64,000 nucleotides of DNA from Chloroflexota bacterium (lineage in GTDB: Bacteria > Chloroflexota > JAHJIN01). The position numbers and the translations under genes were made by a program. Shown here piece by piece: positions 8,101 through 26,136 of this stretch; position 1 is the first letter of the stretch, and each line of letters begins with the position of its first letter. Below the pieces are notes generated by a model that was not told where the DNA came from, made no database searches, and worked only from the letters and a program-made list of their open reading frames with translations. The stretch covers positions 1-64,000 of the forward strand of contig JAHJIN010000501.1 of NCBI GenBank assembly GCA_018823415.1. Direction: 5' to 3'.

Positions 8101-9741
8101 CTACTTGCCTACAAAGGGCAGCCAGGCCCATCGCTGTTCGCCGGACTTGTGTTGCTTGGAAGACCGGCGGCGGCGCTTGCCCCCATCCTCGGAGGAATAA
8201 TAGTAATAGTAATAACCAGAGCCGCTACGGCTGGTCTTGAGGCGGTTCAACACCGCGCCCAGCACGTGTACGCCCACCTGGTCCAGCATGGCCTTGGCGC
8301 GCTCGGCCTCGCCCCGGCGCGTGTCGCCGGCGTCCACCACCAACAAGACACCGTCCACCTGAGAGCCAAGCACGGCCGCGTCGGTGACGGCTAACGCCGG
8401 TGGACTGTCAAACAAGACCACATCGGCGTGCTCTTTGAGGAGACGGATCACCTCGGCCATGCGCCGCGAGCCCAGCAGTTCAGCCGGGTTGGGCGGGATC
8501 GGCCCGCAGGTGAGCAACCCCAGGTTCTTCACGGGCGTGGGGGCCAAGAACATCTCGACGTTGGAGGCGTCGGCCACCAGGAGATTGGTCAACCCCATGG
8601 CATTGGGGGCTTCAAAGATCTTGTGCTGCACCGGGCGCCGCAAATCCGAATCCACAATGATCACACGCTTGCCAGACTCGGCCAGGGCCACACCCAGGTT
8701 GGCAATAGTGGTGCTCTTGCCTTCGCTGGGGCTGGAACTCGTCACCATCAGGGTCCGCAACGGTTCGTCTACGCTGGAGAACTCGATATTGGTGCGCAAC
8801 ACGCGGTACGCTTCGGCGATATGGGATTTGGGATGGGCGGCCACGATGAGCGTTTCGGGCGCAGATTTGGCCGGATTGATGCGGGCGATGCTGCCCAAGG
8901 TGGGCATAGCTAATACACTCTGCACATCCTCGGAGGTCTTGAGTGTGTCGTCCAGGTATTCCACCAAAAAGGCCACGCCCACGGCCAGGGCCAGACCCAC
9001 AGCCGCCGCCAGCAGGGTATTGGTCATGCGGTTAGGCCCCACCTGACGGCCCATCTGGGCCGCATCCACCACCGTAACCGTGTTGATCATTTGGGCCTCA
9101 GTCAGGCGCAACGTTTCATAGTTGCGCACCAACCCCACGTAACTGCTCTGATACTGGGCCAGAATGGTTTCCAGGCGCTTGATCTCGGCCTGACGGGCCT
9201 CTTCCGACAGATTGGCGCCGGCAGCTCCGCTCTTGTAAGCTTGTAGCGCCGTCGTCGTCGCCTCGATATCCTTGGTGGTCAGGGCCATTTCGGCTTCCAG
9301 GCTCTGCCGCGAACTGGCAAAGCGGCCGCGCTGGGTCTCATCATTGTAGCGAATGAAAACCGCCGCCACCTCGTTGGCGATGGCCTGAGCGCGTTCAGCA
9401 TTGCTGTCGGAGACATAGATCTGGAGCAACTGCGTGTCGCCCACTGCGCTCACACTCACCGCCGGGGGATAAGGCAGGCCCAGATTTTGCTGCACCTGTC
9501 CCAGCACCGCGCGCGACTGGATGACCTGCGCATAGGTTTCAGCCAGCCGCTGGCTGGCGATGATGCTCGAATAGTCGGTCACGCCAGTCCGGGCCTGGTC
9601 GATCATGAGCACGGTGCGGGATTGATACGTGGGAGGGATGGTGGATGTAACCAGGTAGGCCGTTCCACCGGCCAGGATCAGCCCCAGAACCGCCAACCAC
9701 CACCACTTGCGCACCAAATTTAGATATTGCCGTAATTCCAT
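8101..9741 (-). CDS. Polysaccharide chain-length/export tyrosine autokinase (BY-kinase)
   Basis: 546 residues, Wzz-CpsD fusion type. The N-terminal Wzz domain starts with MELRQYLNLVRKWWWLAVLG (first transmembrane helix 12-34) and ends with a second helix at about 241-261. The cytoplasmic kinase has Walker A SSSPSEGKSTT (335-345), Walker A' IIVDSDLRRP (361-370) and Walker B VVLFDSPP (441-448). A tyrosine cluster (residues 510-515, six Tyr) is the autophosphorylation tail, followed by a basic stretch. These kinases control exopolysaccharide length and export and are dephosphorylated by CpsB-type phosphatases such as the one at 15463-16245. The ATG at 9741 is chosen over an upstream TTG. A promoter lies at 9792-9820. 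Confidence 0.93.
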   Translation of the reverse strand: MELRQYLNLVRKWWWLAVLGLILAGGTAYLVTSTIPPTYQSRTVLMIDQARTGVTDYSSIIASQRLAETYAQVIQSRAVLGQVQQNLGLPYPPAVSVSAVGDTQLLQIYVSDSNAERAQAIANEVAAVFIRYNDETQRGRFASSRQSLEAEMALTTKDIEATTTALQAYKSGAAGANLSEEARQAEIKRLETILAQYQSSYVGLVRNYETLRLTEAQMINTVTVVDAAQMGRQVGPNRMTNTLLAAAVGLALAVGVAFLVEYLDDTLKTSEDVQSVLAMPTLGSIARINPAKSAPETLIVAAHPKSHIAEAYRVLRTNIEFSSVDEPLRTLMVTSSSPSEGKSTTIANLGVALAESGKRVIIVDSDLRRPVQHKIFEAPNAMGLTNLLVADASNVEMFLAPTPVKNLGLLTCGPIPPNPAELLGSRRMAEVIRLLKEHADVVLFDSPPALAVTDAAVLGSQVDGVLLVVDAGDTRRGEAERAKAMLDQVGVHVLGAVLNRLKTSRSGSGYYYYYYSSEDGGKRRRRSSKQHKSGEQRWAWLPFVGK

Positions 9742-9791
9742 TGACAACCCCTGTTATGAACTCTAACTCGGCCCACGTAGGACCGAACTGC

Positions 9792-9820
9792 ATTTTAGCA
9801 CATAGCCCCCCAACGGTCAA
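9792..9820 (-). promoter_or_regulatory. Sigma-70-type promoter of the BY-kinase gene
   Basis: On the minus strand TTGACC (9815-9820), a 17-base spacer and TAAAAT (9792-9797) with an upstream TGC (extended -10). Five of six bases match in each box. It overlaps the end of the glycosylase gene and precedes the kinase start by about 45 bases from the expected transcription start. Confidence 0.7.
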
Positions 9821-10494
9821 GCGTTCTGCCGCCGCCGCTGGCGCCAGTCACAATCGGCACACAACGGGCAGCCATCACATACCGGGCGCGTGCGGCACCG
9901 CTCCTTGCCGTGCCGCACGATGAGTGCGTGGTACTCGTTAAACATGGGTACATCTTGGGGCAGGTGCCCGACGAACAATTGCTGCAATTCGTGATAGCGC
10001 GCCGAACTGGGTGCCAGGCCCAGCCGCCCCAAGATGTGCCGGGTATAGGCATCGATCACAAAGGCCGGACGTTCGGCGGCATAAAGCAGGATGCAATCCG
10101 CCGTTTCGGGGCCAACGCCGTGAACGTCCAGCAATTGGGCGCGCAGCGATGCGGTATCGAGCGCAAACAGCGCGTCCAGGCCCCCGTGCTGCGTCACCAA
10201 TTCGACCAGGGCATGCAGGCGACGGGCCTTGACGTTGAAATATCCGGCTGGCCGGATCAGGTTGGCCAGTTCGGCCGGGGATAGCGCCAACAAACCGGCC
10301 GGCGTAAGCGCGCCGGCCGTCTGCAAGTTGACGATGGCCTTTTCTACGTTGGTCCAGGCTGTGTTTTGGGTGAGGATGGCGCCCACCATGACCTCAAAGG
10401 CCGTGTCCCCCGGCCACCAGCCCTGGGGACCATAGGCCATCAACAGCCGATCATAAAGTGGGCGCAAGCGATGCCCCGGATCATCCGGCATCAT
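9817..10494 (-). CDS. Endonuclease III-related DNA glycosylase (MagIII/COG2231-like)
   Basis: About 225 residues of the HhH-GPD superfamily with an iron-sulfur loop. The helix-hairpin-helix reads DVHGVGPETADCILLYA and is followed by the catalytic aspartate in FVIDAYTRH. The lysine that gives endonuclease III its lyase activity is replaced (GPE rather than GPK), as in the monofunctional 3-methyladenine glycosylases of the MagIII type. Four cysteines, C-x5-C-x2-C-x5-C near the C-terminus, suit a 4Fe-4S cluster. The start is uncertain: the two ATGs at 10494 and 10491 overlap the end of rmlB by 11-14 bases. Its presence at the end of a polysaccharide operon is probably positional only. Confidence 0.85.
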   Translation of the reverse strand: MMPDDPGHRLRPLYDRLLMAYGPQGWWPGDTAFEVMVGAILTQNTAWTNVEKAIVNLQTAGALTPAGLLALSPAELANLIRPAGYFNVKARRLHALVELVTQHGGLDALFALDTASLRAQLLDVHGVGPETADCILLYAAERPAFVIDAYTRHILGRLGLAPSSARYHELQQLFVGHLPQDVPMFNEYHALIVRHGKERCRTRPVCDGCPLCADCDWRQRRRQNA

Positions 10495-11530
10495 CCGCTC
10501 GCAGTTCACGCACCAGAGCGGCCCGGTCTTCATAGTTGCGACGATACCATTCCTTGTACTCGCCGCTCTTGATCTTGCGCCACCACCACTCGTTGGCCTC
10601 GTACCAGCGGACGGTCTTTTCCAGCGCTTGCTCAAAGGTGTGCGCCGGCTCCCAGCCCAGGGCCTTGAGCTTGTCGCTGTTCAGCGAATAGCGCCGGTCG
10701 TGGCCGGGCCGGTCAGTCACAAACTGGATGAGCGAGCGCGGCTTGCCCAACAGGTCCAGCAGCAGGTATGTCATGTCCAGGTTCACGGTTTCCTGATCTG
10801 GCCCCACGTTGTATGCCTCGCCCGGCGTGCCGTGATGGAGCACCACATCGATGCCCTGACAGTGGTCGAGCACGTACTGGTAGGGGCGCACCTGGCGCCC
10901 GTCGCCATAGACCGGCAGGGGCAGGTCATCGATGGCATTGGTGATGAACAGGGGCACCACGTTTTCTGGGTACTGGTAGGGACCGATGTTGTTGGCCCCC
11001 CGGGTGACGGTGACGGGCACATTATAGGTGGTATGATAAGCCTGGCAGAGCAGTTCGGCGCCGGCCTTGCTGGCTGCATAAGGGCTGCGCGCCTCCAGCT
11101 TGTCCGTTTCTACCGACGAACCGTCCAGCACCTCGCCATACACTTCGTCGGTGCTCACGTGGTGCAGACGTTCCAGGCGCAGGTCTTTGACGACCTCGAG
11201 CAGCACATAGGTACCGTACACGTCGGTCCTGATAAAAGCGTCCGCGTCAATGATGGAGCGATCGACGTGCGTTTCGGCCGCAAAGTTGACGATGGTATCG
11301 ACGTCATACTCGCGCACCACCTTTTCTACCGCTGGCCGGTCGCAGATGTCGCCACGCACAAAGGCCAGGTAACGCGGATGGCCGTCCAGGTCGCGCAGGT
11401 TGTCCAAGTTGCCGCGATAGTTCAGCACATCATAGACCACGAACCGGTAATGCGGGTATTGCTCCAGCATATAGCGCAGGAAATTGGAGCCGATAAAGCC
11501 GGCTCCCCCGGTAATCAGCAGGTTTCTCAA
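10481..11530 (-). CDS. rmlB: dTDP-glucose 4,6-dehydratase
   Basis: 349 residues of the extended short-chain dehydrogenase family; it converts dTDP-glucose to dTDP-4-keto-6-deoxyglucose for dTDP-rhamnose and related sugars. The NAD-binding motif is TGGAGFIGSNF at the N-terminus. The catalytic Thr-Asp-Glu lies in STDEVYG and the Tyr/Lys pair in SPYAASKAG. RGANNIGPYQYPEN is a family signature. The RmlA partner is in the same operon (14367-15443). No rmlC or rmlD is visible, so the final sugar cannot be deduced. Confidence 0.96.
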   Translation of the reverse strand: MRNLLITGGAGFIGSNFLRYMLEQYPHYRFVVYDVLNYRGNLDNLRDLDGHPRYLAFVRGDICDRPAVEKVVREYDVDTIVNFAAETHVDRSIIDADAFIRTDVYGTYVLLEVVKDLRLERLHHVSTDEVYGEVLDGSSVETDKLEARSPYAASKAGAELLCQAYHTTYNVPVTVTRGANNIGPYQYPENVVPLFITNAIDDLPLPVYGDGRQVRPYQYVLDHCQGIDVVLHHGTPGEAYNVGPDQETVNLDMTYLLLDLLGKPRSLIQFVTDRPGHDRRYSLNSDKLKALGWEPAHTFEQALEKTVRWYEANEWWWRKIKSGEYKEWYRRNYEDRAALVRELRADDAG

Positions 11531-11544: not shown

Positions 11545-11793
11545 TTACAGCTTTTTGCCGCGCCGGGCATAGGCCTCGCGGAGCAGGCTTTCCAGGTCCT
11601 CTGCCGTGAGCAGATAGGTTTCGGCCTTCATCTCACCCCGGCGCTCACGGCTGACGGACGTGCCCTGGAGGATGATGCCCTCTTCGGTTTCTAGCACCCG
11701 AACGTTGGAGAACTGTTGCTGGTCGACGTAATGGCCGATGGCACGCAGAATGTCCTGATAATCAGTGCGGTTCGTCCCGGAAAATAGTTTCAT
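11545..11793 (-). CDS. Small protein of unknown function, paralogue of the next upstream gene
   Basis: 82 residues, not recognised. It has a strong ribosome binding site (GGAGGTATACG-ATG) and aligns end to end with the 72-residue product of 11806-12024. Shared features are Y-x-x-IL-x-AIG-x-x-(V/I), a central strand VRVLETEEGIILQGTSV against ICILEVDGGMIVQGTGV, and a C-terminal (T/S)-x-(E/D)-(D/E)-L helix. No signal peptide, membrane helix or cysteines. The predicted alpha-beta-alpha order suggests a small folded domain, perhaps a heterodimer with its paralogue. It sits inside the polysaccharide operon between rmlB and the other small gene. Confidence 0.8.
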   Translation of the reverse strand: MKLFSGTNRTDYQDILRAIGHYVDQQQFSNVRVLETEEGIILQGTSVSRERRGEMKAETYLLTAEDLESLLREAYARRGKKL

Positions 11794-11805
11794 CGTATAC
11801 CTCCG

Positions 11806-12024
11806 TCACTTGGCCATCATCTTGGCCAGCTCATCGTGGCTAATCAGCTTGGTCTCCATCACGTATTGATACCCATCACGTGTAGAGGCCACGCCGGTGC
11901 CCTGGACGATCATGCCGCCATCCACTTCCAGGATGCAGATGTCGCGCCAGCCTTTTTCCTGAATGTGGTTGCCGATGGCCAACAGGATGGCCCCGTAATT
12001 GCCCTTTTTTTCGCTACCTGGCAT
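11806..12024 (-). CDS. Small protein of unknown function, paralogue of the downstream gene
   Basis: 72 residues, starting MPGSEKKGNYGAILLAIG after an ideal site (AAAGGAGGT, 7 nt before ATG). It is a tandem duplicate of the 82-residue protein at 11545-11793, with 12 bases between the two genes, so translation is likely coordinated. The core EVDGGMIVQGTGV is glycine-rich and probably a beta turn. I recognise no family. Its operon partners (PHP phosphoesterase, RmlB, B12 radical SAM) suggest a role tied to surface polysaccharide or its regulation, but this is inference only. Confidence 0.8.
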   Translation of the reverse strand: MPGSEKKGNYGAILLAIGNHIQEKGWRDICILEVDGGMIVQGTGVASTRDGYQYVMETKLISHDELAKMMAK

Positions 12025-12055: not shown

Positions 12056-12946
12056 TTAATACCGTTTTGAGCCGACCTGCGTCTCTGGCTCGTCTATCAG
12101 CGACCACGCACCGCTGACATGCCGCCGTCGAAATGTATGCACCGCCTCGAAACCGGCCCCGCGCGCGTGGGCCAGCGCCGCCGGCCAATCTCGCCCCAGG
12201 TCACCCGCGCAATGGGCGTCTGAACCCACCGTGAGGACGTGCACGCCGGCCGACCGGGCCTGGGCCAGCAGTTCCGCGCCGGGATACGGCTCGGGCAGGC
12301 CTTTGCGCAAGGCGCCGATGTTGATCTCCAGGCCCACGCCGTGCTCGACCAGGATCGCCAGCGCCGGCCCGGCCAGCTCGCGATGGACCGTCAACACGGC
12401 ATCGCCATAGGCAGCGCGTCCATAGAGCTTGTAGATGTCCAGGTGCCCGATCACATCGAACAAACCGCTGGCGGCTGCTTCGCCGACCAGGTCAAAGTAG
12501 CGCTGGGCCATCTGGTGCAGCGAGCGATGGGCAAAACAGCCGGGGGCCTCGGCCGGCGCCGAAAGACATTGATGGTCCAGGCAATGCACCGAGCCGATGA
12601 TGAAATCGAACGGGCGGCGGGCCAACGTTTCGGCGATCAGATCCGCCACGCCGGGAAAATAGTCCACTTCCAGGCCCAGTCCCACCCACAGGCCGTGGGG
12701 CAGCCCCCACTCGCGGGCGGCCAACACGTCGTCCACATAAGAGTCCAGGGCCGACGGGCTAGGCATCAGCCGCCCGTCCACCATCATCCAGCCTTCCACG
12801 TCGCGCCGGGCCGGGTCCAGATCATAGTGAGTGGTAAAGCAAATCTCGGTCAAGCCCAACTCGAGCGCGCGCCGGGTATAGTCCGCGATGGTGGCCCGGC
12901 CATCCGTATCAATCGAGTGTGAAGGGTGAATGTGATAGTCGAACAA
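12056..12946 (-). CDS. PHP-domain phosphoesterase, histidinol-phosphatase-like
   Basis: 296 residues of the PHP superfamily. Metal ligands are visible in YHIHPSHSIDTDG at the N-terminus, TTHYDLDP, GSVHCLDHQ in the middle, and GSDAHCAGDLGRDW near the C-terminus. This pattern is that of HisJ/HisK histidinol-phosphate phosphatases. In the absence of other his genes and inside a polysaccharide operon, the substrate may be another phosphate ester. The start appears to be TTG at 12946 because the HIH motif must lie near residue 5; no good ribosome binding site is seen. It is 26 bases downstream of the radical SAM gene. Confidence 0.85.
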   Translation of the reverse strand: MFDYHIHPSHSIDTDGRATIADYTRRALELGLTEICFTTHYDLDPARRDVEGWMMVDGRLMPSPSALDSYVDDVLAAREWGLPHGLWVGLGLEVDYFPGVADLIAETLARRPFDFIIGSVHCLDHQCLSAPAEAPGCFAHRSLHQMAQRYFDLVGEAAASGLFDVIGHLDIYKLYGRAAYGDAVLTVHRELAGPALAILVEHGVGLEINIGALRKGLPEPYPGAELLAQARSAGVHVLTVGSDAHCAGDLGRDWPAALAHARGAGFEAVHTFRRRHVSGAWSLIDEPETQVGSKRY

Positions 12947-12972: not shown

Positions 12973-14364
12973 CTAGGCCCCGGCCAGCACGCGCCGCAGC
13001 TTGCGCACGACCTTGTCAGGCCGGGCATAGCGATCCCACTTGGCACGACTCCAGCGGCGCAGGGCGTTCGCCGGCTTGCGCCGCTGCGATTCGGCCAGCG
13101 CCCACTGGAGAAAGGCCGCATCGTGGCCCTTGACCTTGGGCGCGTCGGGGTTGCGTCGGTAGCTGTCGTGGTCGGTGATAAGAGACAGGTCGTGCTCCAG
13201 ACAATAGTCATAGAGATCGCTGCCGGGGTGGGGGGTATAGAATGCCGGGCTATAATAGTCCGGGTCGATCTCGCGGAGCATCGAGATAGTATCCCGCATC
13301 TCGGCCTCGGTTTCGGTGGGCAGGCCCAGCATGTAATTGGCCCAGATGGTGATGCCATAGCGCTTGCAGATGCGCCCGGCCTCCAGGTTAATGGCCCGGG
13401 TGGTGCCTTTGCGAATAAAGCGTAGCACGCGGTCGTTGCCGCTCTCAAAGCCGATGAAATAGCCGCGCAGGCCCACCTGCACCATGCGCCGCACCACGTC
13501 CTCGTGCCGCACGATGATGTCGGCCCGGCTCTGGCAAAAGAACGGCTGCGTGAACCCGGCCGCCTGGTACGCATCGCAAAAGGCCAGTACCCAGTCGCGG
13601 TCTTCGGTGAGGGTATCATCGTGGAACATGAAACTGGCAAAACCATACCGATCGCGCAGGTGCTCCAGTTCGCCCATCACGTGGGCCACGCTGCGCCGAC
13701 GCACCTTTTTGCCAAACAGGCGGCGCTCGGCCGGCTGGCAAAAGCTGCAATTGTAGCGGCAGCCCCGGCCGGCGATGATGGTGACGAACGGCGGCGGCAG
13801 TTCTTGGGCAAATGGCGCCTCGGGCGAATCCAGCTTGTAGCCCCACTTTCGCCACTCGTTCAGGAACAGGTCATGGTCCGAATAGGGCAGGCCGTCCAGG
13901 TCCGGCGGCTCGCCCACCAGCACCCGGTCGGCCGGGGGGGTCCCGGCCGCGATATCATTCAATAAGCGGGGGAACGTGACCTCGCCCTCATGCGTCACGA
14001 CATAGTCAATGCGCGACTCGGGCAGCACCTCATCCAGCATCAGCGTGGGATGCGGGCCGCCCACCACGATGGTGGCCTGGGGTAGCACCTCGTCGATGAT
14101 GCGCACGCATTCCATCACCGGGTTGAAATCGACGCTCATCATGGTGAGGCCGCACACCTGGGGCTGGCGCGCGGCCAGTTCCTGGCGAAAATGGTCCCAC
14201 CCGCGCAGCGCCCGCAGGTCCAGCAGGTTCACCTCGTGGCCGGCCTCCTGGGCCACGGCCGACAGGATCGCCAGGCCGTGGCTGATCCAACCCGAGTCCA
14301 TGCCCTGGCCGGTGCTATCGAAACCTTTGCCGGTGATCCCGGCATAGATCAGCGTGGTCTGCAT
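12973..14364 (-). CDS. B12-binding radical SAM protein
   Basis: 463 residues. The N-terminal cobalamin-binding domain (about 1-130) has VCGLTMMSVDF and VVGGPHPTLM. The radical SAM core begins with GRGCRYNCSFCQP, giving the CxxxCxxC cluster motif, and continues with FHDDTLTED and IGFESGND. Enzymes of this group carry out methylations or rearrangements using methylcobalamin and S-adenosylmethionine; the substrate here is unknown. Only 2 bases separate it from rmlA and 26 from the PHP gene, so it belongs to the polysaccharide operon. Modification of a sugar or lipid carrier is plausible but unproven. Confidence 0.9.
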   Translation of the reverse strand: MQTTLIYAGITGKGFDSTGQGMDSGWISHGLAILSAVAQEAGHEVNLLDLRALRGWDHFRQELAARQPQVCGLTMMSVDFNPVMECVRIIDEVLPQATIVVGGPHPTLMLDEVLPESRIDYVVTHEGEVTFPRLLNDIAAGTPPADRVLVGEPPDLDGLPYSDHDLFLNEWRKWGYKLDSPEAPFAQELPPPFVTIIAGRGCRYNCSFCQPAERRLFGKKVRRRSVAHVMGELEHLRDRYGFASFMFHDDTLTEDRDWVLAFCDAYQAAGFTQPFFCQSRADIIVRHEDVVRRMVQVGLRGYFIGFESGNDRVLRFIRKGTTRAINLEAGRICKRYGITIWANYMLGLPTETEAEMRDTISMLREIDPDYYSPAFYTPHPGSDLYDYCLEHDLSLITDHDSYRRNPDAPKVKGHDAAFLQWALAESQRRKPANALRRWSRAKWDRYARPDKVVRKLRRVLAGA

Positions 14365-14366: not shown

Positions 14367-15443
14367 CTACCGCCCGTTGGTGATGAGGCCGACCTTGCTG
14401 TTGTCGCCCAGCATCATCTTGTAGGCCCGGGGCTTGAGAGGGCTGCGGGTGATCTCGACGTTACGGCCAATGAGGCTATCTTCGATGCGCTGGTCAATGT
14501 GCAAAATCTTGGTATGTTCCAGCACGATGGAATGCTCGATCTCGCTGCAATCGACGATCGTGTGGTGATAGATGGCCGTGAACGGCCCGACATACGAGTT
14601 GACGATACGCGCATCGCGGCCAATGATGGCCGGCCCGCGAATCACGCTGTTGATGATCTCGGCGCCGGCCTCGATGGTGACTTTGCCGCTGAGTTGCGAA
14701 TCACGATCGACATAGCCTTCGACATAGGGTTCCAGCTCGTCCAGCACCAGCCGGTTGGCGTCCAGCATGTCGCCCGGCGCGCCGGTGTCGATCCACCATC
14801 CTTCGTGCACATAGGGATAGACCTGATACTGGTGATCCACCAGGTATTGGATGGCGTCGGTGATCTCGAGTTCGCCACGCCAGGAAGGCGCAATATTGTC
14901 CACCGCCTCCCAGATGTGGTGATCGAACATATAGATGCCCACCAACGCCAGGTTGGACCGGGGCTGGCGCGGCTTTTCCACCAGGCGCTCGATGCGACCG
15001 TCCCTGAGTTCGGCCACGCCGTATTGCTCGGGATGCTCGACCCGAGTGAGGACGATCTGCGAATTCCATTCGCTGTGCTCGAACTGGCGGATCAGGTTGG
15101 CGATGCCGCCCTGGATCACATTGTCGCCCAGGAACATGACAAAGCGATCATCGCCCAAAAAATCACGCGAGACCTTGACGGCGTGGGCCAGCCCCAGGGG
15201 TGCGTCTTGCTGGATGTACGTGATGTGCACATCCCACCGGCTGCCATCGCCGACGGCCTCTTTGATCTCGGGGGCCGTGTCGCCCACCACAATGCCAATG
15301 TCGTCGATCCCGGCGTCATGGATGGCCTCGATGACCCGGAACAGGACCGGCTTGTTCGCCACCGGCACCAGTTGCTTGGCGCTGGTGTAGGTAATGGGGT
15401 ACAGGCGGGTTCCCTTGCCGCCGCTCAAAACGAGTCCCTTCAT
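14367..15443 (-). CDS. rmlA: Glucose-1-phosphate thymidylyltransferase (long form)
   Basis: 358 residues. The nucleotidyltransferase signature LSGGKGTRLYPIT opens the protein, followed by KQLVPVANKPV and a catalytic-site aspartate in FLGDN. It makes dTDP-glucose, the substrate of RmlB. The extra C-terminal 100 residues (GKVTIEAGAEIINSVIRGPA and following hexapeptide-like repeats) form a left-handed beta helix, as in the long RmlA/StrD subgroup of actinobacteria, chloroflexi and archaea. The ATG at 15443 has CGGAGG upstream; the reading frame is open 81 bases further but without a site. Confidence 0.95.
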   Translation of the reverse strand: MKGLVLSGGKGTRLYPITYTSAKQLVPVANKPVLFRVIEAIHDAGIDDIGIVVGDTAPEIKEAVGDGSRWDVHITYIQQDAPLGLAHAVKVSRDFLGDDRFVMFLGDNVIQGGIANLIRQFEHSEWNSQIVLTRVEHPEQYGVAELRDGRIERLVEKPRQPRSNLALVGIYMFDHHIWEAVDNIAPSWRGELEITDAIQYLVDHQYQVYPYVHEGWWIDTGAPGDMLDANRLVLDELEPYVEGYVDRDSQLSGKVTIEAGAEIINSVIRGPAIIGRDARIVNSYVGPFTAIYHHTIVDCSEIEHSIVLEHTKILHIDQRIEDSLIGRNVEITRSPLKPRAYKMMLGDNSKVGLITNGR

Positions 15444-15462
15444 TTTTCCTCCGTGACGAGAA

Positions 15463-16245
15463 TTACCACAGGCGCCACCGGCGGCGTTTGGAATGCCGGG
15501 GCAAAGGTTCCGGCGGCGGCACAAACAGCCGTTCGTCGGCCAGGATGCGCGCCGGCATATCCGTCACCATCGCCTGCGCCCGGTCCTCTCCGATCAACTC
15601 GGCAGCCACAGCCACCGCCTCCGAAAGCCGCGGGCTGCGCTGACCGATGCCGTGCGCATCTGAGGCAATGACGTGCGCCAACCCGTGGGTCAAGAACAGG
15701 CGCGCCGTGTCCTGCACTTCCGAGCCAAAGACCCCAACCAGGCTGGCGGCAGTGAGTTGGGTCAGCACGCCGCGTTCTACCAAGGTGTAGAGCAGCTGGG
15801 GGTTCTTGATCACGGCCGTGTAGCGTTCGGGATGGGCGATGATGGGCACCAGGCCGGCCACCTGTAGCTCAAAGACGATTTGCTCCACATAGTGCGGATA
15901 TTGCTGCAAGGGGAACTCGAGGAGCAGGTAGCGGGTGCCGCCCAAGGTACAGCCCGGCTCACGGGTAATGCGCCGGGGTAGGTCAGGGGCGATATACACT
16001 TCCAAGCCGGGTACAATCACCAGATCCAGCCCATCGTCCTGACAGGCCGTTTGCAGTCGGTCCACCGACTCGCGCACCGCAGAGGGCAACTGCATCCACA
16101 CCCCCTCCACGCTGTGCGGCGTCGCCACGATGCGCCCCACGCCATCGGCGACCGCCATGCGGGCCATGTCCAACGCCTGGGCCATATCCTGAGCCCCGTC
16201 ATCAAAGCCGGGCAGGATGTGCGAGTGCAGGTCTATGTATGGCAT
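15463..16245 (-). CDS. cpsB: CpsB/CapC-family tyrosine-protein phosphatase
   Basis: 260 residues of the PHP-type bacterial tyrosine phosphatases (Wzb analogues of Gram-positives). Metal ligands: DLHSHILPGFDDGA, ATPHSVEGV, IIAHPERY and IASDAHGIG. It would remove phosphate from the tyrosine tail of the BY-kinase at 8101-9741, so cycles of phosphorylation set polysaccharide output. The start MPYIDLHSH at 16245 is preferred over an ATG 12 bases upstream, since that upstream stretch holds the GAGGG site. First gene of the operon under the 16275-16303 promoter. The C-terminus ends in a basic run. Confidence 0.92.
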   Translation of the reverse strand: MPYIDLHSHILPGFDDGAQDMAQALDMARMAVADGVGRIVATPHSVEGVWMQLPSAVRESVDRLQTACQDDGLDLVIVPGLEVYIAPDLPRRITREPGCTLGGTRYLLLEFPLQQYPHYVEQIVFELQVAGLVPIIAHPERYTAVIKNPQLLYTLVERGVLTQLTAASLVGVFGSEVQDTARLFLTHGLAHVIASDAHGIGQRSPRLSEAVAVAAELIGEDRAQAMVTDMPARILADERLFVPPPEPLPRHSKRRRWRLW

Positions 16246-16274
16246 GACATCCCTCATGTGGCGGCTTGGCAGTC

Positions 16275-16303
16275 AGTATACCGGCTTTTGTCCAGGCTGT
16301 CAA
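16275..16303 (-). promoter_or_regulatory. Sigma-70 promoter of the polysaccharide operon
   Basis: Minus strand TTGACA (16298-16303), 17-base spacer, TATACT (16275-16280). Eleven of twelve consensus bases match. The expected transcript starts about 25 bases before the cpsB start. Spacing downstream (2-26 bases between genes to rmlB) supports a single long transcript. Confidence 0.85.
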
Positions 16304-16320
16304 GAAAAGGAGAGCGCCGT

Positions 16321-16968
16321 TCAGCCAATGAACTTGGCCCAATCTGCCAAAAAGCGCTCGATGCCCCGATCGGTGAGGGGATGCTGGATCATCTGCATGA
16401 GCACCTTGTAGGGCACTGTGGCAATGTGCGCGCCGGCCAGGGCCGCCTGGGTGACATGCAGCGGATGGCGAATGCTGGCCGCGATGATCTGGGTATCCAG
16501 GTCATGGCGCTCGAATATTTCGGCGGTCTCGACCACCACCTGCATCCCGTCATGGTTGATATCATCCAGCCGACCGACAAAGGGCGAAACATAGGCGGCG
16601 CCGGCCAGGGCTGCGAGCAGGGCCTGGTTGGCCGAAAAGATGAGCGTGGCATTGGTGGGAATCCCTTCATCGGCCAGGACACTGATGGCAGCCAGGCCTT
16701 CGGCCGTGATGGGCACCTTGACCACTACGTATTCCGACCATCGGGCAATCTCGCGGGCCTGGGCCACCATGCCTTCGGCATCAGGGGCCGTGACCTCGGC
16801 GCTCACCGGGCCGCGCACCAGATCGCAGATGGCCCGGATGGTTTCGCCGAAATCGACCCCGCTCTCTCGAGCCATCAGGCTGGGGTTGGTGGTTACGCCA
16901 CTGACCACGCCCAAGCGCACGCCAGCGCGGATCTCGTCCATGCTCGCAGTGTCGAGAAAAATACGCAT
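16321..16968 (-). CDS. fsa: Fructose-6-phosphate aldolase / small transaldolase
   Basis: 215 residues, the size of the single-domain transaldolase group. [14 protein letters not shown] and GVTTNPSLM are the N-terminal signatures; the Schiff-base lysine is Lys84 in [16 protein letters not shown] and SIRHPLHV also match. It moves dihydroxyacetone units between sugar phosphates, in the pentose phosphate pathway (TalC) or in fructose-6-phosphate cleavage (FSA); sequence alone does not separate these. The ATG at 16968 has GAAGGAG upstream. It follows the terminator of the ribosomal operon. Confidence 0.93.
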
Positions 16969-17003
16969 TGTCCCGGTTTCTCCTTCAGTGCGGTGTGGCA
17001 CGG

Positions 17004-17044
17004 AAAAAAGGCAGGCAGAACCCCGTTGATGGGGCCTGCCTGCA
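17004..17044 (-). terminator. Intrinsic terminator of the ribosomal protein operon
   Basis: On the minus strand GCAGGCAG-G-CCCC, loop, GGGG-TT-CTGCCTGC, then six T (17004-17009). The stem is about 12 bp with a small internal bulge. It stands 34 bases after the rpsI stop and marks the end of the long operon. Confidence 0.85.
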
Positions 17045-17077
17045 CTTGTGCGAACACCATAGGGTCCTCGCTCACAA

Positions 17078-17476
17078 TTAGCGCTTGGTATACTGCTTGG
17101 CGCGTCGGGCTCGCCGCAACCCGGGCTTTTTGCGCTCCTTGACCCGGGGATCGCGCGTGAGCAACCCGGCCTTTTTGAGCACAGACCGAGAGCTGGGATC
17201 GGCCACTATCAAGGCGCGAGCCAGGCCATGCCGAACCGCGCCGGCCTGACCAGAAACGCCGCCACCGCGCACCTTGACCGTGGCGCTGTATTGCTTTTCC
17301 GTGCTGGTCAGTCGCAAGGGAGTCAATACGTCCCGCTGGTGAATGGCTGTGGGAAAATACTCGCCCAACGGTTTGTCATTGACCACGATCTCGCCATTGC
17401 CGTCAAACAGGCGCACCCGGGCCACGGCAGTTTTGCGCCGTCCCGTGGCATAGTGGTATCGCTGCACGTTCACCAT
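17078..17476 (-). CDS. rpsI: 30S ribosomal protein S9
   Basis: 132 residues with [18 protein letters not shown] at the N-terminus and the basic tail ending in RAKQYTKR, whose last residues contact P-site tRNA. The last gene of the operon, 12 bases after rplM, in the conserved rplM-rpsI pair. Confidence 0.98.
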
Positions 17477-17488
17477 AACATCCGCCTC

Positions 17489-17920
17489 CTATTCTAGCTC
17501 TAACGGCTGGGGCTGCTGCGCGTCATGGGGATGCTCGCTCCCGGCATACACCTTGAGCTTTTTGAACATCTGGCGCCCCAATCGATTGTGTGGCAACATG
17601 CCGCGCACGGCCGATTCCAGCACCCGGTTGGGGTGGCGTTGCAATTGGTCACGCAAGGTGATTTGCTTGAGCCCGCCAGGGTAATTGGAATGCCGATAAT
17701 ACATTTTTTGATCCAGTTTGCGCCCGGTAACCTGAATCTTGGCGGCATTCACCACAACCACAAAATCACCCACGTCTAGATGCGGGGTATAGATCGGCTT
17801 GTGTTTGCCGCGCAAGATATGCGCGATACGGGTCGCCAGCCGGCCCAGGTTCTGCCCATCCGCATCCACCACCCACCATTTCCGCTGGATGTCAGATGCT
17901 CGCGTGGCATATGTCTTCAT
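17489..17920 (-). CDS. rplM: 50S ribosomal protein L13
   Basis: 143 residues: [20 protein letters not shown] and [19 protein letters not shown] are L13 signatures. L13 is an early assembly protein of the large subunit. The start [10 protein letters not shown] at 17920 follows GAGAGG; an alternative start lies 9 bases upstream. Confidence 0.98.
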
Positions 17921-17991
17921 CCTGTACACCTCTCTCTACCGAATTCACGTATCGTTTCAGCATCCCGGGATGGAGCATGAGGCAAACTGCC

Positions 17992-18774
17992 CTACGTCCC
18001 CGGTTTATCGAAAAGGTACGAATTCACCCATAGATCTGCCGGATACGTCACCTGCATCAAGCACAAGCCATGCCCCGGGGCGCTGGGACCAGAGCGGGAC
18101 CGGTCGCGCGTCGCCAACAGCTCGGCCACAATATCGGGAGACCGTTGCTGCCGGCCCACCAGTAACAAAGTGCCCACCAGGCCCCGCACCATGCGCCGCA
18201 GAAACGCATTCGCCTCAATGTCAAACCAGATACGCGGCCCGTCCTGGCTCCATGCGGCCCGATAGAGCACGCGCACGGTACTGCGAGAGCGCCCCACCGG
18301 CGAGCCAAAGGTGGCGAAATCGTGCTCTCCCACCAGCACCTGGCTGGCACTGTTCATAGCTGCCACATCGAGTGGGCGAGGCACGTGCAGGCTATACAGG
18401 CGCTCGGTGGGCAACCGCGCGGGCGCGTTCCATATGCGATAGCGATAGGTGCGGCTGCGGGCGCTGAACCGGGGATGAAACCCCGCCTGGACCATTGCCA
18501 CCTGCCGCACTGCAATGTCGGGCGGCAGCACAGCATTCATGGCCCGCTCTAGATCGGCCGGGTCCCATGGTGTGATCAGGTCACACGCCGCCACCTGACC
18601 CAGGGCATGCACGCCCGTATCCGTGCGGCCGGCCCCCACCACGCGCGGGACCTCGCCGGTGAGGCGGTGCAATGCAGCCTCTAACTCTCCCTGGATCGTA
18701 GGACCCTGGCGTTGGATCTGAAACCCCTGGTACCGTGTCCCATCATAGGCCACGATAAAGGCAAATCGGCCCAC
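17992..18774 (-). CDS. truA: tRNA pseudouridine(38-40) synthase
   Basis: 260 residues, standard TruA. It converts U38-U40 of tRNA anticodon arms to pseudouridine. The catalytic Asp lies in GAGRTDTGVHALGQ; FLRRMVRGLVGTLL is the conserved C-terminal segment. The start is GTG at 18774 (GTGGGCCGATTT), 18 bases after the rplQ stop. Its place between rplQ and rplM is common in bacteria. Confidence 0.96.
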   Translation of the reverse strand: MGRFAFIVAYDGTRYQGFQIQRQGPTIQGELEAALHRLTGEVPRVVGAGRTDTGVHALGQVAACDLITPWDPADLERAMNAVLPPDIAVRQVAMVQAGFHPRFSARSRTYRYRIWNAPARLPTERLYSLHVPRPLDVAAMNSASQVLVGEHDFATFGSPVGRSRSTVRVLYRAAWSQDGPRIWFDIEANAFLRRMVRGLVGTLLLVGRQQRSPDIVAELLATRDRSRSGPSAPGHGLCLMQVTYPADLWVNSYLFDKPGT

Positions 18775-18792
18775 AGCCTTGACCAGCCGCGC

Positions 18793-19173
18793 CTACTCCT
18801 CTACCAGCTCGATCCGGGCCATCTTGGCCGCATCGCCGAGACGCTGGTTTAGCTTGATAATCCGCGTATAGCCACCGGGGCGATCTTGATACCGGGGCGC
18901 CAGAACCTCGAACAGCTTGCGTGCGATCAAGGGATCGTTCAAACGCGCCACCGCCAACCGGCGAGCGTGCAATGTGCGTTCTGGCCGCTCGTCGGCCAGG
19001 CCGCGCTTGGCCAGCGTGATCAAGCGTTCGGCCAGGGGGCGAATCGCCTTGGCTTTGGCTTCTGTGGTGGTGACGTGCTCGTGGCGCAACAGGTCTGTCA
19101 CCAGGTTTCTGTATAACGCACGCCGATGTCCGCTGGAACGGCCCAGCCTGCGGCCGGCAATATGGTGTCTCAT
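18793..19173 (-). CDS. rplQ: 50S ribosomal protein L17
   Basis: 126 residues, MRHHIAGRRLGRSSGHRRALYRN..., the L17 signature, and HVTTTEAKAKAIRPLAERLI. Follows rpoA after 32 bases, the conserved alpha-operon order. Confidence 0.98.
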   Translation of the reverse strand: MRHHIAGRRLGRSSGHRRALYRNLVTDLLRHEHVTTTEAKAKAIRPLAERLITLAKRGLADERPERTLHARRLAVARLNDPLIARKLFEVLAPRYQDRPGGYTRIIKLNQRLGDAAKMARIELVEE

Positions 19174-19205
19174 AGGTTACATGCTCTCCCTGGCTTGACC
19201 CGGTC

Positions 19206-20183
19206 TTATTCTTCGGGGGCCAACTCGGCCTCTTCTACCGGGGCCAATAACGAATAGTCGATATAGCCCTTGGCTTGCAGTTGATCGCGCAACTCGTCCA
19301 AGGACTTGCGGCCAAAGTTCCACACCGCCAGCAAATCGTCTTCGCTCATCTCCAACACTTGCCCCACCCGAGTGATGCCCGAGCGTTTGAGGCAGTTGTA
19401 GGCTCGTACTGATAGGTCCAGGTCTTCGATGGGCGCATCATAGACCTGGCTGGGAATGTCCAGGACCACCGCGGTCACCTCTTCCGGGCGCCGGGTTTCG
19501 GACAAACCAAATTCCATCACCAGGCTAAAGTGGCGCACCAAAATCTGGGCTGCCCGCGAGAACGCATCGCGCGGGCGCAACGTGCCATTGGTCCAGATCG
19601 ATACCAGGAGCCGGTCATAGTCTGTGGCCTGACCGATGCGCGCCCGCTCCACTTCGTATTGGACCTTGCGTACTGGGCTAAAGATCGCGTCCACCGGAAT
19701 GGTGCCAATTGGCAATTCGCCCTCGTGGGCCTCTGCTGGCTGATAGCCCCGGCCACGTTCCACCGTCATCTCCATATCCAGCACAGCTTCTGGCGTGTCC
19801 AACGTGGCGATGTGCAATTCTGGGTTTACGATTTCGATTTCGGGCGGCGCGGTAATGTCGGCCGCTGTCACTTCTCTCTGACCGCTGGCATGCAGCCGCA
19901 TGATCACCGGTTCATCAGACAGGGACTGCACGCCCAGCCGCTTCAGATTCAACACGATCCCCATGGCGTCCTCGCGAACGTGAGGAATATCAGAGAACTC
20001 GTGCCATATCCCGCTAATGCGAACCGAGGTCACAGCCGCACCCGGCAACGATGACAGCAACACCCGGCGTAAGGCATTGCCAATGGTGATGCCGTACCCA
20101 CCTTCCATGGGGCCAACGGCAAATCGGCCAAATTCGGGCGTCTCTTCCAGACTCGTGATCTGGGGCAATATGATATCTAGCAA
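19206..20183 (-). CDS. rpoA: DNA-directed RNA polymerase alpha subunit
   Basis: 325 residues. The N-terminal domain has the dimerisation stretch GNALRRVLLSSLPGAAV; the C-terminal domain (from about 245) has LDLSVRAYNCLKRSGI and the DNA-binding helix region NFGRKSLDEL. The protein starts with TTG at 20183, after GGAGGCGGATCC. Both domains appear complete. Confidence 0.98.
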   Translation of the reverse strand: MLDIILPQITSLEETPEFGRFAVGPMEGGYGITIGNALRRVLLSSLPGAAVTSVRISGIWHEFSDIPHVREDAMGIVLNLKRLGVQSLSDEPVIMRLHASGQREVTAADITAPPEIEIVNPELHIATLDTPEAVLDMEMTVERGRGYQPAEAHEGELPIGTIPVDAIFSPVRKVQYEVERARIGQATDYDRLLVSIWTNGTLRPRDAFSRAAQILVRHFSLVMEFGLSETRRPEEVTAVVLDIPSQVYDAPIEDLDLSVRAYNCLKRSGITRVGQVLEMSEDDLLAVWNFGRKSLDELRDQLQAKGYIDYSLLAPVEEAELAPEE

Positions 20184-20300
20184 GGATCCGCCTCCTATTC
20201 TTGGCGCTAGCGGCGCTGAACTATGCTCTGACCCAACACCGCCCGGCGCGCCACTATGGGGTGCCCAACCCGATCGCTGATCGTATAGATGCGGACCTGC

Positions 20301-20939
20301 CTACCGGCTATAGTATTCCACAACCAGTTGTTCGTTCAAGGTAATATCCACATCCGAGCGCGCGGGCAAAGCCGTCACGCGACCTTCCAGGGTCTTCGGA
20401 TCCAACGTTAGCCAGGGCGGCGTAGTTCGGCGACCCAGGCTCTTGGCATGGTCTTTAAAGTAGGTATTCCCCCGACTAGTTTCGCGCACCTGGATCACAT
20501 CTCCCACGTGCACAATGTACGAGGGTATGTCAACCCGCCGGCCATTTACTGCCAAGTGGGCATGGTTGACCAGTTGGCGAGCCTGCGCCCGCGAATCGGC
20601 CAGGCCCAGGCGATATACCACATTGTCCAGGCGCCGTTCCAGCAATTGCAGCAGGTTCTCACCGGTCAAGCCGGGCATGCGCTCGGCTTCGGCGAAATAG
20701 CGTCGGAACTGGCGTTCGAGCACGCCATAGATGCGGCGCACTTTTTGCTTTTCGCGCAACTGCAAGGCATAGTCCGAAGGTTTGCGTTGGCGGCGTCCGC
20801 GAGCACTACCGTGGTCCCCGGGTGCGTATGCACGCCGCTCCATGGCGCACTTGGACGTCATACACCGATCGCCCTTGAGGAACAGTTTGGCCCCCTCACG
20901 GCGACACAGTTTGCACACGGAGCCAGTATATCTAGCCAT
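20301..20939 (-). CDS. rpsD: 30S ribosomal protein S4
   Basis: 212 residues. The N-terminal zinc-knuckle region has four cysteines ([17 protein letters not shown]), and the S4 RNA-binding domain is [13 protein letters not shown] through [15 protein letters not shown]4 nucleates 30S assembly and in many bacteria represses the alpha operon; no matching leader was identified here. A 117-base spacer separates it from rpoA. Confidence 0.98.
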
Positions 20940-20987
20940 TCATCCTCCCAAAATAGCGGCCCCCCGCAGCGGGGCGGGGCAAGAGTC

Positions 20988-21392
20988 CTACACTCGCCGG
21001 CGCTTGCGCGGCCGACAGCCATTGTGCGGGATGGGCGTCACGTCGGTGATCGACGCGACTGCCACACCCGAAGCTTGTAGCGCCCGAATCGCCGCGTCGC
21101 GCCCGGACCCGGGGCCCTTGACGAACACGTCTACCTGGCGCACGCCAAAGTCAGCGGCTTGCCGAGCCACTTGCTGGGCTGCTAACTGGGCGGCAAAGGG
21201 CGTACCTTTGCGCGCGCCCTTGAACCCGGCCGTGCCACAACTGGCCCACGTGAGCGTGTTGCCTTCTTGATCGGTCACGGTGACAATGGTGTTGTTGAAC
21301 GTGGCCATGATGTGGGCCTGCGCATGCGGCACCATCTTGCGCTCGCTGCGTTTGGCTCGGGTGCGCCGACCTGTTTTCTTTGGTGGTACCAT
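20988..21392 (-). CDS. rpsK: 30S ribosomal protein S11
   Basis: 134 residues with [19 protein letters not shown] and the C-terminal [10 protein letters not shown]. Preceded by a 130-base spacer holding a possible internal promoter and a short hairpin. Confidence 0.98.
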
Positions 21393-21438
21393 CCTCTATC
21401 TCCTGCTAAGAAACTTGAGAGCCGTGTTGAACTGTCAC

Positions 21439-21468
21439 AGTATATACCCAGCCAGAGCCTCTTGTCGA
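21439..21468 (-). promoter_or_regulatory. Possible internal promoter ahead of rpsK
   Basis: Minus strand TCGACA (21463-21468), 18-base spacer, TATACT (21439-21444). It lies in the 130-base rpsM-rpsK spacer, after a 16-base palindrome (21478-21493, CCGACA-CGAG-TGTCGG) followed on the minus strand by CTTTT, which could weaken read-through. It may adjust rpsK-rpsD-rpoA-rplQ expression. Confidence 0.4.
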
Positions 21469-21522
21469 AAAGACTGTCCGACACGAGTGTCGGGCTCGTA
21501 TGGGTATGGGTTCTATTGACCG

Positions 21523-21906
21523 CTACTTTTTGGCTACAGCGCGCCGCCGCCCAGCCACGGTCTTGCGCGGCCCACGCCGGGTGCGCGCGTTGGTGCGTGT
21601 GCGTTGCCCCCGCACCGGCAGTCCCCGGCGATGGCGCAAGCCACGGTAGCACCCAATCTCGATCAGGCGCTTGATGTTCATATCCACGGCCCGCCGCAGA
21701 TCGCCTTCCACCCGATAATCGCGCTCGATCACCTCGCGCAGACGGTTGACCTCGGCTTCGGTCAGGTCTTTGACGCGCGCCCCTGGCGTCACCGCAGCCA
21801 CCTTGACGATCTTGCTCGCCGAAGTGCGCCCAATTCCATAGATATACGTCAGCGCGATATCCACTCGCTTGTTTCTGGGGATATCCACCCCAGCGATTCT
21901 CGCCAC
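21523..21906 (-). CDS. rpsM: 30S ribosomal protein S13
   Basis: 127 residues: [26 protein letters not shown] and [24 protein letters not shown]. Contacts the P-site tRNA and the 50S head bridge. Follows rpmJ by 28 bases. Confidence 0.98.
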
Positions 21907-21934
21907 GTAGCACCTCCAGTGACTTGACTCTACC

Positions 21935-22048
21935 CTATCCCTGTCGTTGTTTGTGCTTGGGATTCTTGCAGATCACACGCACCACACCCCGGCGCCGAAT
22001 GATCTTGCAATGCTCACAACGTTTTTTTACCGATGCCGATACTTTCAT
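21935..22048 (-). CDS. rpmJ: 50S ribosomal protein L36
   Basis: A 37-residue protein: [17 protein letters not shown]... and a C-terminus ending [10 protein letters not shown]. The zinc ribbon ligands C-x2-C, C and H are intact. GAGGAGGATACG precedes the ATG. It directly follows map, with no infA between them. Confidence 0.97.
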
Positions 22049-22070
22049 CGTATCCTCCTCGCGGCACGTC

Positions 22071-22820
22071 CTACAGCCGCGTCAATACCTCTGCCTCACC
22101 ATCTGTGATCGCGATGGTATGTTCAAAGTGCGCCGATAGGCCGCCGTCACGTGTGACCACGGTCCACACATCATCCAATACCCGCGTTTGGGCAGTGCCA
22201 ATGGCCAGCATGGGTTCCAGCGCCAGAGTCATACCCGATCGCAGGCGCAAACCGCGGCGGGGCTCCCCGATGTTGGGGATATGCGGGTCTTCGTGCAGGT
22301 GCCGGCCAATGCCGTGCCCCCCATACTCGCGTACCACACCCAACCCGGCCCCCTCGGCGCAACGCTGCACCGCCCACGACACGTCGCCCAGTCGTTGGCC
22401 GGCCCGGGCCGCCGCAATGGCCGCCGCCAGCGCCTCGCGCGTTACATCCATCAAGCGCTGGGCTGCCGGCGAGATGGCCCCCACCGCCACGGTGATGGCC
22501 GTATCGCCCTGGTAGCCCTTGTAGATCACACCCTGGTCCAGGCTGACAATGTCGCCGGCCTGCAAGACCCGGTCGCCCGGAATGCCGTGCACGATCTCGT
22601 CGTTGACCGACACGCAAATAGAAGCCGGGTAGCCCCGATAGCCCTTGAACGAGGGCTCAGCGCCGCGCTTGCGGATCTCTTGCTCGCCCAGGGCGTCCAG
22701 TTCGGCGGTGGTGATACCAGGCCGCACAGCCACGCGTAGGGCCTCGCGCACTTCGGCTACGATGCGCCCGGCTTCGCGCATCAGGGCCAGCTCGTGCGCT
22801 GACTTGATGACCACAGCCAT
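22071..22820 (-). CDS. map: Methionine aminopeptidase, type I
   Basis: 249 residues; removes the initiator methionine from nascent proteins. The metal ligands are in [16 protein letters not shown] (Asp pair), [17 protein letters not shown] (His), ALEPM (Glu) and the C-terminal FEHTIAITD (Glu). The start [10 protein letters not shown] at 22820 is chosen; the frame is open slightly further. It begins 4 bases after the adk stop. Confidence 0.97.
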
Positions 22821-22824
22821 GATG

Positions 22825-23487
22825 CTAGGCTTCCACGGTCGCGACAAGCGCAGCCGTCATACCATCGATATCCAGCGTGCCATCGATCTCGGTGAGCAGG
22901 TCCCGGGTCTTGTACCAATCCACCAGCGGGGCCGTTTGCTCCTGATACACCGCAATGCGCCGGCGATGAGTCTCGGGCGTATCATCGGCGCGTTGATACA
23001 GCTCGCCGCCGCACTCGTCACACCGCCCGGCCACCCGGGGCGGGCTGAACAGCAGGTGATATACCGCTCCGCACTGCCGACAGGTCCACCGACCGCCCAG
23101 ACGGGCCAGAAGCACGTCGGCTGGTGCATCGATATAGAGCACAGTTTCCAACGCATGCCCTTGCTGAGCCAGCGCGTCTTCCAGGGCCTGGGCCTGGGCC
23201 ACGGTGCGCGGAAAGCCATCCAACAGCGCGCCGGCGGCACAATCAGGCTGAGCCAGGCGATCTACCACCATGGCGATGGTAATGTCATCGGGCACCAGCG
23301 CCCCCCGATCCATATAGGTCTTGGCTTGCAAGCCCAGCGCGGTTTCGGCCTTGAGGTTCTGCCGGAACAAGTCACCCGAAGCCACGTGCGGCAAACTCAG
23401 CCGCTCGGTCAGCCGCTCGGCTTGCGTACCTTTGCCCACGCCCGGCGGCCCCAGCAAGACGATATAACGCGGCCCGGTCTCGCCCAC
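22825..23487 (-). CDS. adk: Adenylate kinase with zinc-binding lid
   Basis: About 220 residues; interconverts AMP + ATP and 2 ADP. The P-loop is GPPGVGKGTQAERL, and the AMP-binding GDLFRQNL and DGFPRTVAQA are conserved. The lid has two CxxC pairs (CRQCGAVYH, CDECGG), as in Gram-positive and many other zinc-containing kinases. The start is likely GTG at 23487 with AGGAAGG 4-10 bases upstream; an ATG at 23517 would overlap secY by 20 bases. Confidence 0.96.
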   Translation of the reverse strand: MGETGPRYIVLLGPPGVGKGTQAERLTERLSLPHVASGDLFRQNLKAETALGLQAKTYMDRGALVPDDITIAMVVDRLAQPDCAAGALLDGFPRTVAQAQALEDALAQQGHALETVLYIDAPADVLLARLGGRWTCRQCGAVYHLLFSPPRVAGRCDECGGELYQRADDTPETHRRRIAVYQEQTAPLVDWYKTRDLLTEIDGTLDIDGMTAALVATVEA

Positions 23488-23497
23488 GTCAGCCTTC

Positions 23498-24784
23498 CTA
23501 TTTGATAAAGCCCTCATAGTGACGCATCAACAACTGGGCTTCCAACTGGCGCATGGTATCCAGCACCACGCCCACCACAATAAGCACACTGGTGCTTTCC
23601 AGAGACATGGTCTGCACGCCGGTGAACAGGCGCGCGAAAAAGGGCAACACTGCCACCAGGCCCAGAAACACAGCCCCAAACAGCGTGATGCGGTTCACGA
23701 TGCGCATCAAATAGTCCTGGGTGGGCCGGCCCGGTCGAATGCCCGGAATAAAGCCGCCCTGCTTTTGCAGGTTTTCGGCCAGATTTTGCTGTTCAAAGAT
23801 GACCATGGTATAGAAATACGTGAACCCAATGGTCATGAGAAAATAAGACGCCGCATAGATCATGCTATCCTGTGAGAACCACGCCACCATGGTCTTGCCC
23901 ACGTCGCCCACCCAGCCCTCGCTATACTGCATATAGCCGCCGATGAGCGAGGGAAAGGCCAGGATAGACAGGGCAAAGATCAGCGGGATCATGCCGGCCG
24001 ACAGGACCTTGATCGGCACATGGGTGCTGCCGCCGCCATAAATACGCCGGCCCCGCACCCGTTTGGCATAGTGGACCGGGATCCGCCGCTCGCCTTCTTG
24101 CACCATCACAATCGCCACCACGGTGATGACGGCGATGGCAAAAAAGACAATGACCCCCACCCAGTTTTGCCCCAGGATCAGCGTGCTGCCGATCTGGCTG
24201 GGCAGCCGGGCCACGATATTGGCCAGGATGATGATGGACACGCCGTTGCCGATGCCGGCCTCCGAGATTAACTCGCCAAACCACACACAGACCACGGTAC
24301 CGGCGATGACGGTTGACAGGATGGCGACGGTAGACACAGCGGACGTCAGATCGCCAAACCCCCAGTTGGTAATGATGCCCTGGCTGTAATAGACCGAGAT
24401 CTGCCCAAATGCCTGCAACAAGGCCAGGGGCACCGTCATCCAGTGCTGAATGCGGTTGATGCGCTGCCGCCCGGCTTCGCCTTCCTTCTGCCATTCTTCC
24501 AGCTTGGGGATGATGGGCGTGAGGAGCTGCATGATGATGGTGGCCGTGATGTACGGATACACGCCCATCATCACGATGGACAGGCGCGACATGGCCCCGC
24601 CGGCGAACATGTCCACCAGGCTCAAGAACTGGTTGCCCTGAAACAACTCGGCCAGCTTTTCCTGATCGACGCCGGGCACCGGCACGGCCGCGATCAGGCG
24701 AAAGACCACCAGGATAAAGATCGTAAACAGCAATCGCCGACGCAGATCTGGCAATCGAAAGACATTGAGCATCGCTTGCAGCAT
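23498..24784 (-). CDS. secY: Protein translocase subunit SecY
   Basis: 428 residues with ten hydrophobic helices, forming the central channel of the Sec system. Family motifs: PYITATIIMQLLTPIIPKLEEW, the cytoplasmic loop YAKRVRGRRIYGGGSTHVPIK, and GFIPGIRPGRPTQDYL. Genes are in the usual order rplO-secY-adk. Confidence 0.98.
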   Translation of the reverse strand: MLQAMLNVFRLPDLRRRLLFTIFILVVFRLIAAVPVPGVDQEKLAELFQGNQFLSLVDMFAGGAMSRLSIVMMGVYPYITATIIMQLLTPIIPKLEEWQKEGEAGRQRINRIQHWMTVPLALLQAFGQISVYYSQGIITNWGFGDLTSAVSTVAILSTVIAGTVVCVWFGELISEAGIGNGVSIIILANIVARLPSQIGSTLILGQNWVGVIVFFAIAVITVVAIVMVQEGERRIPVHYAKRVRGRRIYGGGSTHVPIKVLSAGMIPLIFALSILAFPSLIGGYMQYSEGWVGDVGKTMVAWFSQDSMIYAASYFLMTIGFTYFYTMVIFEQQNLAENLQKQGGFIPGIRPGRPTQDYLMRIVNRITLFGAVFLGLVAVLPFFARLFTGVQTMSLESTSVLIVVGVVLDTMRQLEAQLLMRHYEGFIK

Positions 24785-24837
24785 AGTTGATTCCTCGCGG
24801 CTCGTCTATGACTTGGCACTTGGTATGCCGGGGCCAG

Positions 24838-25278
24838 CTACAACTCGAGCACCTCGCCGCCCGCGGCCTCGATCTTGAGGCGCGCGCTGGCAGAGAAACG
24901 GTGCGCGTGCACGGTCAGCGGCCGCGACAATTCGCCGTCTCCCAGCACCTTGACTGGCAGACCATGACGTACCAGGCCCATCTCGTGCAACAGGGCTGGC
25001 GTGATCTCGGTGTGCGCCGGGAATTGCTCCAGGTACCCCACGTTCACCACAGCATATTTCACGGCAAAGATGTTGGTAAACCCACGCACATGGGGCAAAC
25101 GGCGCACCAATGGCAACTGCCCGCCTTCAAAATAGGGCCGCACACCCCCGCCGCTGCGAGAGTTCTGGCCTTTGGTGCCCCGGCCGGCCGTCTTGCCTCG
25201 GCGCCCGCCATCACCCCGGCCGGCACGGATACGATTTTTGCGACTGCCCGGGGCCGGGTGCAACTCGTGCAATTTCAT
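24838..25278 (-). CDS. rplO: 50S ribosomal protein L15
   Basis: 146 residues: [34 protein letters not shown] is typical, with glycine/arginine-rich N-terminus. The start at 25278 has AAGGAG upstream; the open frame extends 24 bases further without a site. Confidence 0.97.
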
Positions 25279-25315
25279 GTTCGTTCTCCTTGCCCGCACC
25301 AAACCAGGCCCGAGC

Positions 25316-26131: not shown

Positions 26132-26136
26132 CAGAG

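Follow-up and report, generated by a model that had tools for sequence, protein, structure and literature searches.

A tandem gene pair from a Chloroflexota polysaccharide operon belongs to an undescribed domain family and may encode a heteromeric accessory module

Related systems and predicted structure

MRP1/MRP2 form a heterotetramer of the Whirly fold in which related chains make up one complex, and VtrA/VtrC is a bile-sensing heterodimer, encoded by adjacent genes, whose small alpha/beta chains complete a single fold. VtrA and VtrC are periplasmic proteins with a membrane anchor. Here we compare these systems with two small proteins, A and B, encoded side by side in a polysaccharide operon within a 64,000-nt stretch of a Chloroflexota contig (JAHJIN010000501.1), referred to below as the window. 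An earlier note on this DNA, made from the sequence alone, had proposed for them a heterodimeric accessory of polysaccharide synthesis, a regulator or an adapter for the BY-kinase, and had regarded predicted disorder as speaking against such a role. AlphaFold2 single-chain models, for which the input sequences came from the window and related loci only, together with DSSP assignment, instead predict an ordered helix-strand-strand-strand-helix domain for both A (pLDDT 81) and B (pLDDT 89).

Foldseek comparison of the two models with the PDB gave nothing at E<=0.001, and TM scores were below 0.5 throughout. The best PDB match of A was MRP1/MRP2 (2gia), at E=0.033 and a TM score of only 0.37; a sheet plus a helix is present in both, but domain size and repeat layout differ and we claim no membership. 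VtrA/VtrC (5kew) was matched at E=0.22 and TM 0.43, and unlike these membrane-anchored, periplasmic proteins neither A nor B has a targeting signal that is apparent by eye. The alpha-beta-beta-beta-alpha order of elements assigned by DSSP to both AlphaFold2 models is shared with the dsRBD/HicA-like fold, but no significant superposition with solved members of that fold was obtained (dsRBD 5npg, E=0.40, TM 0.26). A Foldseek comparison of the B model with viral structures likewise returned nothing significant.

The gene pair and its operon

ORF B, the first gene of the pair, encodes 72 aa (11806..12024, minus strand) and ORF A, the second, encodes 82 aa (11545..11793, minus strand). The ribosome binding site of B is AAGGAGG, located 9 nt 5' of its ATG. 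The two genes are separated by a 12-nt junction (11794..11805, minus strand) containing the ribosome binding site of A, GGAGG, which is located 6 nt 5' of the ATG and starts adjoining the TGA of B, so that translational coupling is likely. No further copy of the pair was detected elsewhere in the genome.

The pair is part of a polysaccharide unit in which the genes given below with Pfam matches lie on the minus strand. The strongest promoter-like site on that strand, a sigma-70-like TTGACA-17-TATACT that agrees with the consensus at 11/12 positions and is a consensus match only (16275..16303), is found just 5' of the first gene, which encodes a CpsB/CapC capsular polysaccharide protein (15463..16257; PF19567, E=4e-58). 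This is followed by genes for a sugar nucleotidyltransferase of the RmlA type with a hexapeptide-like tail (14367..15524; PF00483, E=3.5e-57), a B12-binding radical SAM protein (12973..14364; PF02310 and PF04055) and a PHP-domain protein (12056..12946; PF02811, E=1.8e-18) that is directly upstream of B. Directly downstream of A is a gene for an RmlB-like dTDP-glucose 4,6-dehydratase (10481..11530; PF16363 and PF01370). The rest of the unit encodes an endonuclease III-like HhH-GPD protein, a Wzz/BY-kinase type polysaccharide co-polymerase (8101..9747; PF02706 and AAA_31/ParA matches), a response regulator-GGDEF protein and a glycoside hydrolase of family 2. Short gaps and a shared direction imply that the pair is co-transcribed with the operon, and it would be transcribed from the promoter-like site 5' of CpsB/CapC.

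What the earlier note had described is borne out at this locus: the two ORFs of 82 and 72 residues, a strong and properly spaced ribosome binding site for each, the PHP and RmlB-like neighbours (from Pfam matches) and a gene content, from CpsB/CapC through to the BY-kinase, that is that of a polysaccharide operon. Its statement that the pair lies under the operon promoter holds as far as the promoter-like site is concerned, transcription from that site being the part that we would only infer.

Several other features of the unit can be mentioned. It encodes two different PHP-type phosphoesterases, CpsB/CapC and the PHP-domain protein, the second of which is missing at the corresponding place in three related contigs (L061, G014 and G002). 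The HhH-GPD gene (9817-10635) overlaps the end of rmlB; the ORF lister gave it a TTG start, and the actual start may be more internal. Wzz and BY-kinase form a single fused protein of 548 aa in the window and two separate ORFs in the closest relative (L061:1556-3140). A long ribosomal-protein/rpoA/secY/adk cluster with a transaldolase gene occupies positions 16257-30400, and the polysaccharide unit comes directly after it on the same strand.

Paralogy and the domain family

A and B are true paralogues, as had been proposed previously. They share 31% identity across 64 aa (BLASTP, E=2e-12), and their Smith-Waterman score of 95 is 16.7 standard deviations over the mean of 10,000 shuffles (mean 23, s.d. 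4.3, maximum 51). They belong to an undescribed family of alpha-beta-beta-beta-alpha domains in the Chloroflexota. Neither protein has a Pfam match even at E=10, and no family in Pfam, NCBIfam, PHROG or PADLOC was matched by the pair or by 21 aligned family members, which gave isolated, single-member, weak matches only; the earlier reader, working without such libraries, had likewise recognised no family. A profile search of PDB sequences returned nothing below E=0.09, and no literature on the pair was found under generic terms.

Family alignments (A3 and A4) share a profile with a conserved Y-x4-R-x2-G helix and E-x3-G hairpin. The near-invariant residues (Tyr, Leu, Arg, Gly and Glu) include a Tyr and an Arg in helix 1 with a Gly that follows, as well as a Glu and a Gly in the region of the first hairpin; B of the window has Leu where the family has the helix-1 Arg. 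No conserved Cys, His or other catalytic signature is present in these alignments.

Distribution and history

Profile searches, which covered 400 Chloroflexota genomes, detected homologues in 96 of them. A pattern scan with the A alignment against contigs of 84,980 species gave matches confined to the Chloroflexota; a contig scan with B alone as query found no relatives, and none of A were found in viral contigs. The sole match in a plasmid search was to the Thermomicrobium roseum megaplasmid (E=3e-4); the homologue of this species is annotated only as 'hypothetical protein'.

A tree was built from 93 domains; it has only 86 columns and a number of long branches. One group, with moderate support (89/93), is made up of the B proteins of the window, L061, G014/G002, Roseiflexaceae, L064 and L074, and the A proteins of the same loci group likewise with weak support (97/48). 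Since A and B fall into separate groups, the duplication is probably old, and the tree suggests that it probably predates these Chloroflexota lineages. B precedes A in all 12 tandem loci besides the window. The two genes overlap by 4 nt (ATGA) in Roseiflexus and Kouleothrix; the gap is 11-35 nt in most other tandem loci and 480 nt in L074, and in most of the non-overlapping loci the short gap carries a ribosome binding site.

Among 89 surveyed homologue loci, 44 encode two or more domains fused in a single ORF and 32 encode a single domain only. The second domain of the fused forms is a long branch that does not group with B, so that fusion is no proof of A-B pairing. Homologues of A and B are under strong purifying selection: dN/dS values are mostly 0.02-0.05 for both genes in comparisons of Roseiflexus pairs, and 0.15-0.19 for Kouleothrix pairs.

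Genomic contexts

Besides the window, the pair is found in the same polysaccharide operon in three contigs representing two lineages. In the window and in L061 it lies between the radical SAM gene and rmlB; in G014 and G002 it comes directly after the radical SAM gene, and there the contigs end. Orthologues of the radical SAM protein are present in 12 of the 400 genomes at E<=1e-120, and neither A nor B was detectable at nine of these loci. Polysaccharide operons of other families with the same synteny lack the pair, and the radical SAM gene abuts rmlB directly in G120, G018 and G135. Carriers of the pair do not form one clade in the radical SAM tree (AU p=1.5e-9), which indicates that the pair was gained or lost while the operon persisted. 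The presence of the pair in this operon is thus optional.

Across the family, the contexts are diverse. Neighbour lists are approximate, because gene calls in related loci came from a simple codon-position heuristic, and with this proviso the same polysaccharide genes were found beside a homologue at only three of the 89 loci (L007, L008 and L061, from two lineages), with an RmlA-like fragment approximately 9 kb from the homologue in L042. Consistent linkage of homologues to polysaccharide genes was thus not seen in the survey, nor are homologues found exclusively outside such operons, a distribution that the earlier note would have taken as contrary to its proposal. In the Chloroflexia the B-A pair adjoins genes for SelB and a Zincin_2 peptidase; in Roseiflexaceae and relatives it is preceded by SelB or a large helicase-like gene, and the peptidase gene usually follows it. 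Single-domain members of the Thermomicrobium type come after a MoxR-like AAA gene and a VWA gene, fused members often come after ABC-2 permeases, and MFS transporters adjoin some other homologues.

Possible function

We consider it somewhat probable (about 0.55) that A and B are translated together and form a heteromeric pair with an accessory or adaptor role, reused across operons. One small alpha-beta-beta-beta-alpha domain would have been duplicated long ago to give the two chains, which would combine in a heteromeric module, most likely 1:1. Joint transcription and translational coupling of the genes, with B preceding A, would allow the chains to be produced in matching quantities. Once assembled, the pair would probably act in the cytoplasm as an adaptor or regulatory subunit, and not as an enzyme, for another protein of its operon; this partner would lie within the radical SAM/RmlB/BY-kinase polysaccharide unit in the genome of the window and would be a different protein in other Chloroflexota. 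We infer physical association because the pair is an old, order-conserved, probably co-translated unit whose domains are predicted to be ordered, so that a heterodimer is plausible; coupling and fusion lend indirect support. The widely differing contexts are what a portable accessory module would be expected to show. A single domain is all that is present in 32 of the 89 loci, and part of the family may therefore function alone or as homodimers.

A role dedicated to polysaccharide assembly, in which the pair would for example regulate or serve as an adapter for the BY-kinase, the nucleotidyltransferase or the radical SAM enzyme, would account for the recurrence of the pair within this operon in L061, G014 and G002 and for the implied co-transcription, but we think it unlikely, given that such genes are near only three of the 89 loci, that orthologous operons in G120, G018 and G135 lack the pair and that its carriers are split in the radical SAM tree. 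The operon setting in the earlier proposal is thus real and its heterodimer plausible, whereas the specificity for polysaccharide or BY-kinase is not supported for a family that is mostly found in other operons. A dedicated role of this sort is possible in the lineage of the window, although the family as a whole does not indicate it.

Less probable still is a reading in which each protein acts independently as a small regulator or nucleic-acid-binding protein and the two genes are neighbours by chance. The element order of A and B does recall dsRBD or HicA-type domains, and RNA-binding proteins (MRP1/MRP2 and a dsRBD) appear in the weak Foldseek lists; these matches are all below significance, however, no sequence match to the Pfam dsRBD or HicA models was found, and the conserved gene order and the overlap speak against independent action. 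A toxin-antitoxin-like or selfish pair might also be suggested by the small size and adjacency of the two genes and by their patchy occurrence in an operon that is otherwise conserved, but this is highly improbable for chains that are homologous to one another, have relatives fused in many genomes and homologues under strong purifying selection, and gave neither a PADLOC match nor a relative of A in viral contigs.

An extension of the adaptor reading, which we offer as speculation and do not expect to hold, is that the heterodimer is a phylum-wide Chloroflexota plug-in module, connected to partners that differ from operon to operon (polysaccharide synthesis, SelB/zincin peptidase, MoxR-VWA and ABC-2 exporter loci) and are unrelated to one another, and possibly serving them all as a regulatory or assembly subunit. 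The analysis delineates a domain family that has no name and occurs in roughly a quarter of the sampled Chloroflexota genomes, and it corrects a tempting assignment by guilt of association, as the polysaccharide setting is optional and one of several. The conserved gene order makes a direct A-B interaction easy to test.

A small membrane protein near fused homologues

A conserved single-span membrane protein of 50 residues is encoded near the fused homologue in 25 of the 44 fused loci, generally directly downstream, and it is possible that it acts as a membrane anchor for the fused two-domain homologue. Examples of approximately 50 residues with an acidic tail are found at L009:7247-7402, L010:4012-4167, L051:8683-8835, L052:8535-8687 and L059:7308-7463.
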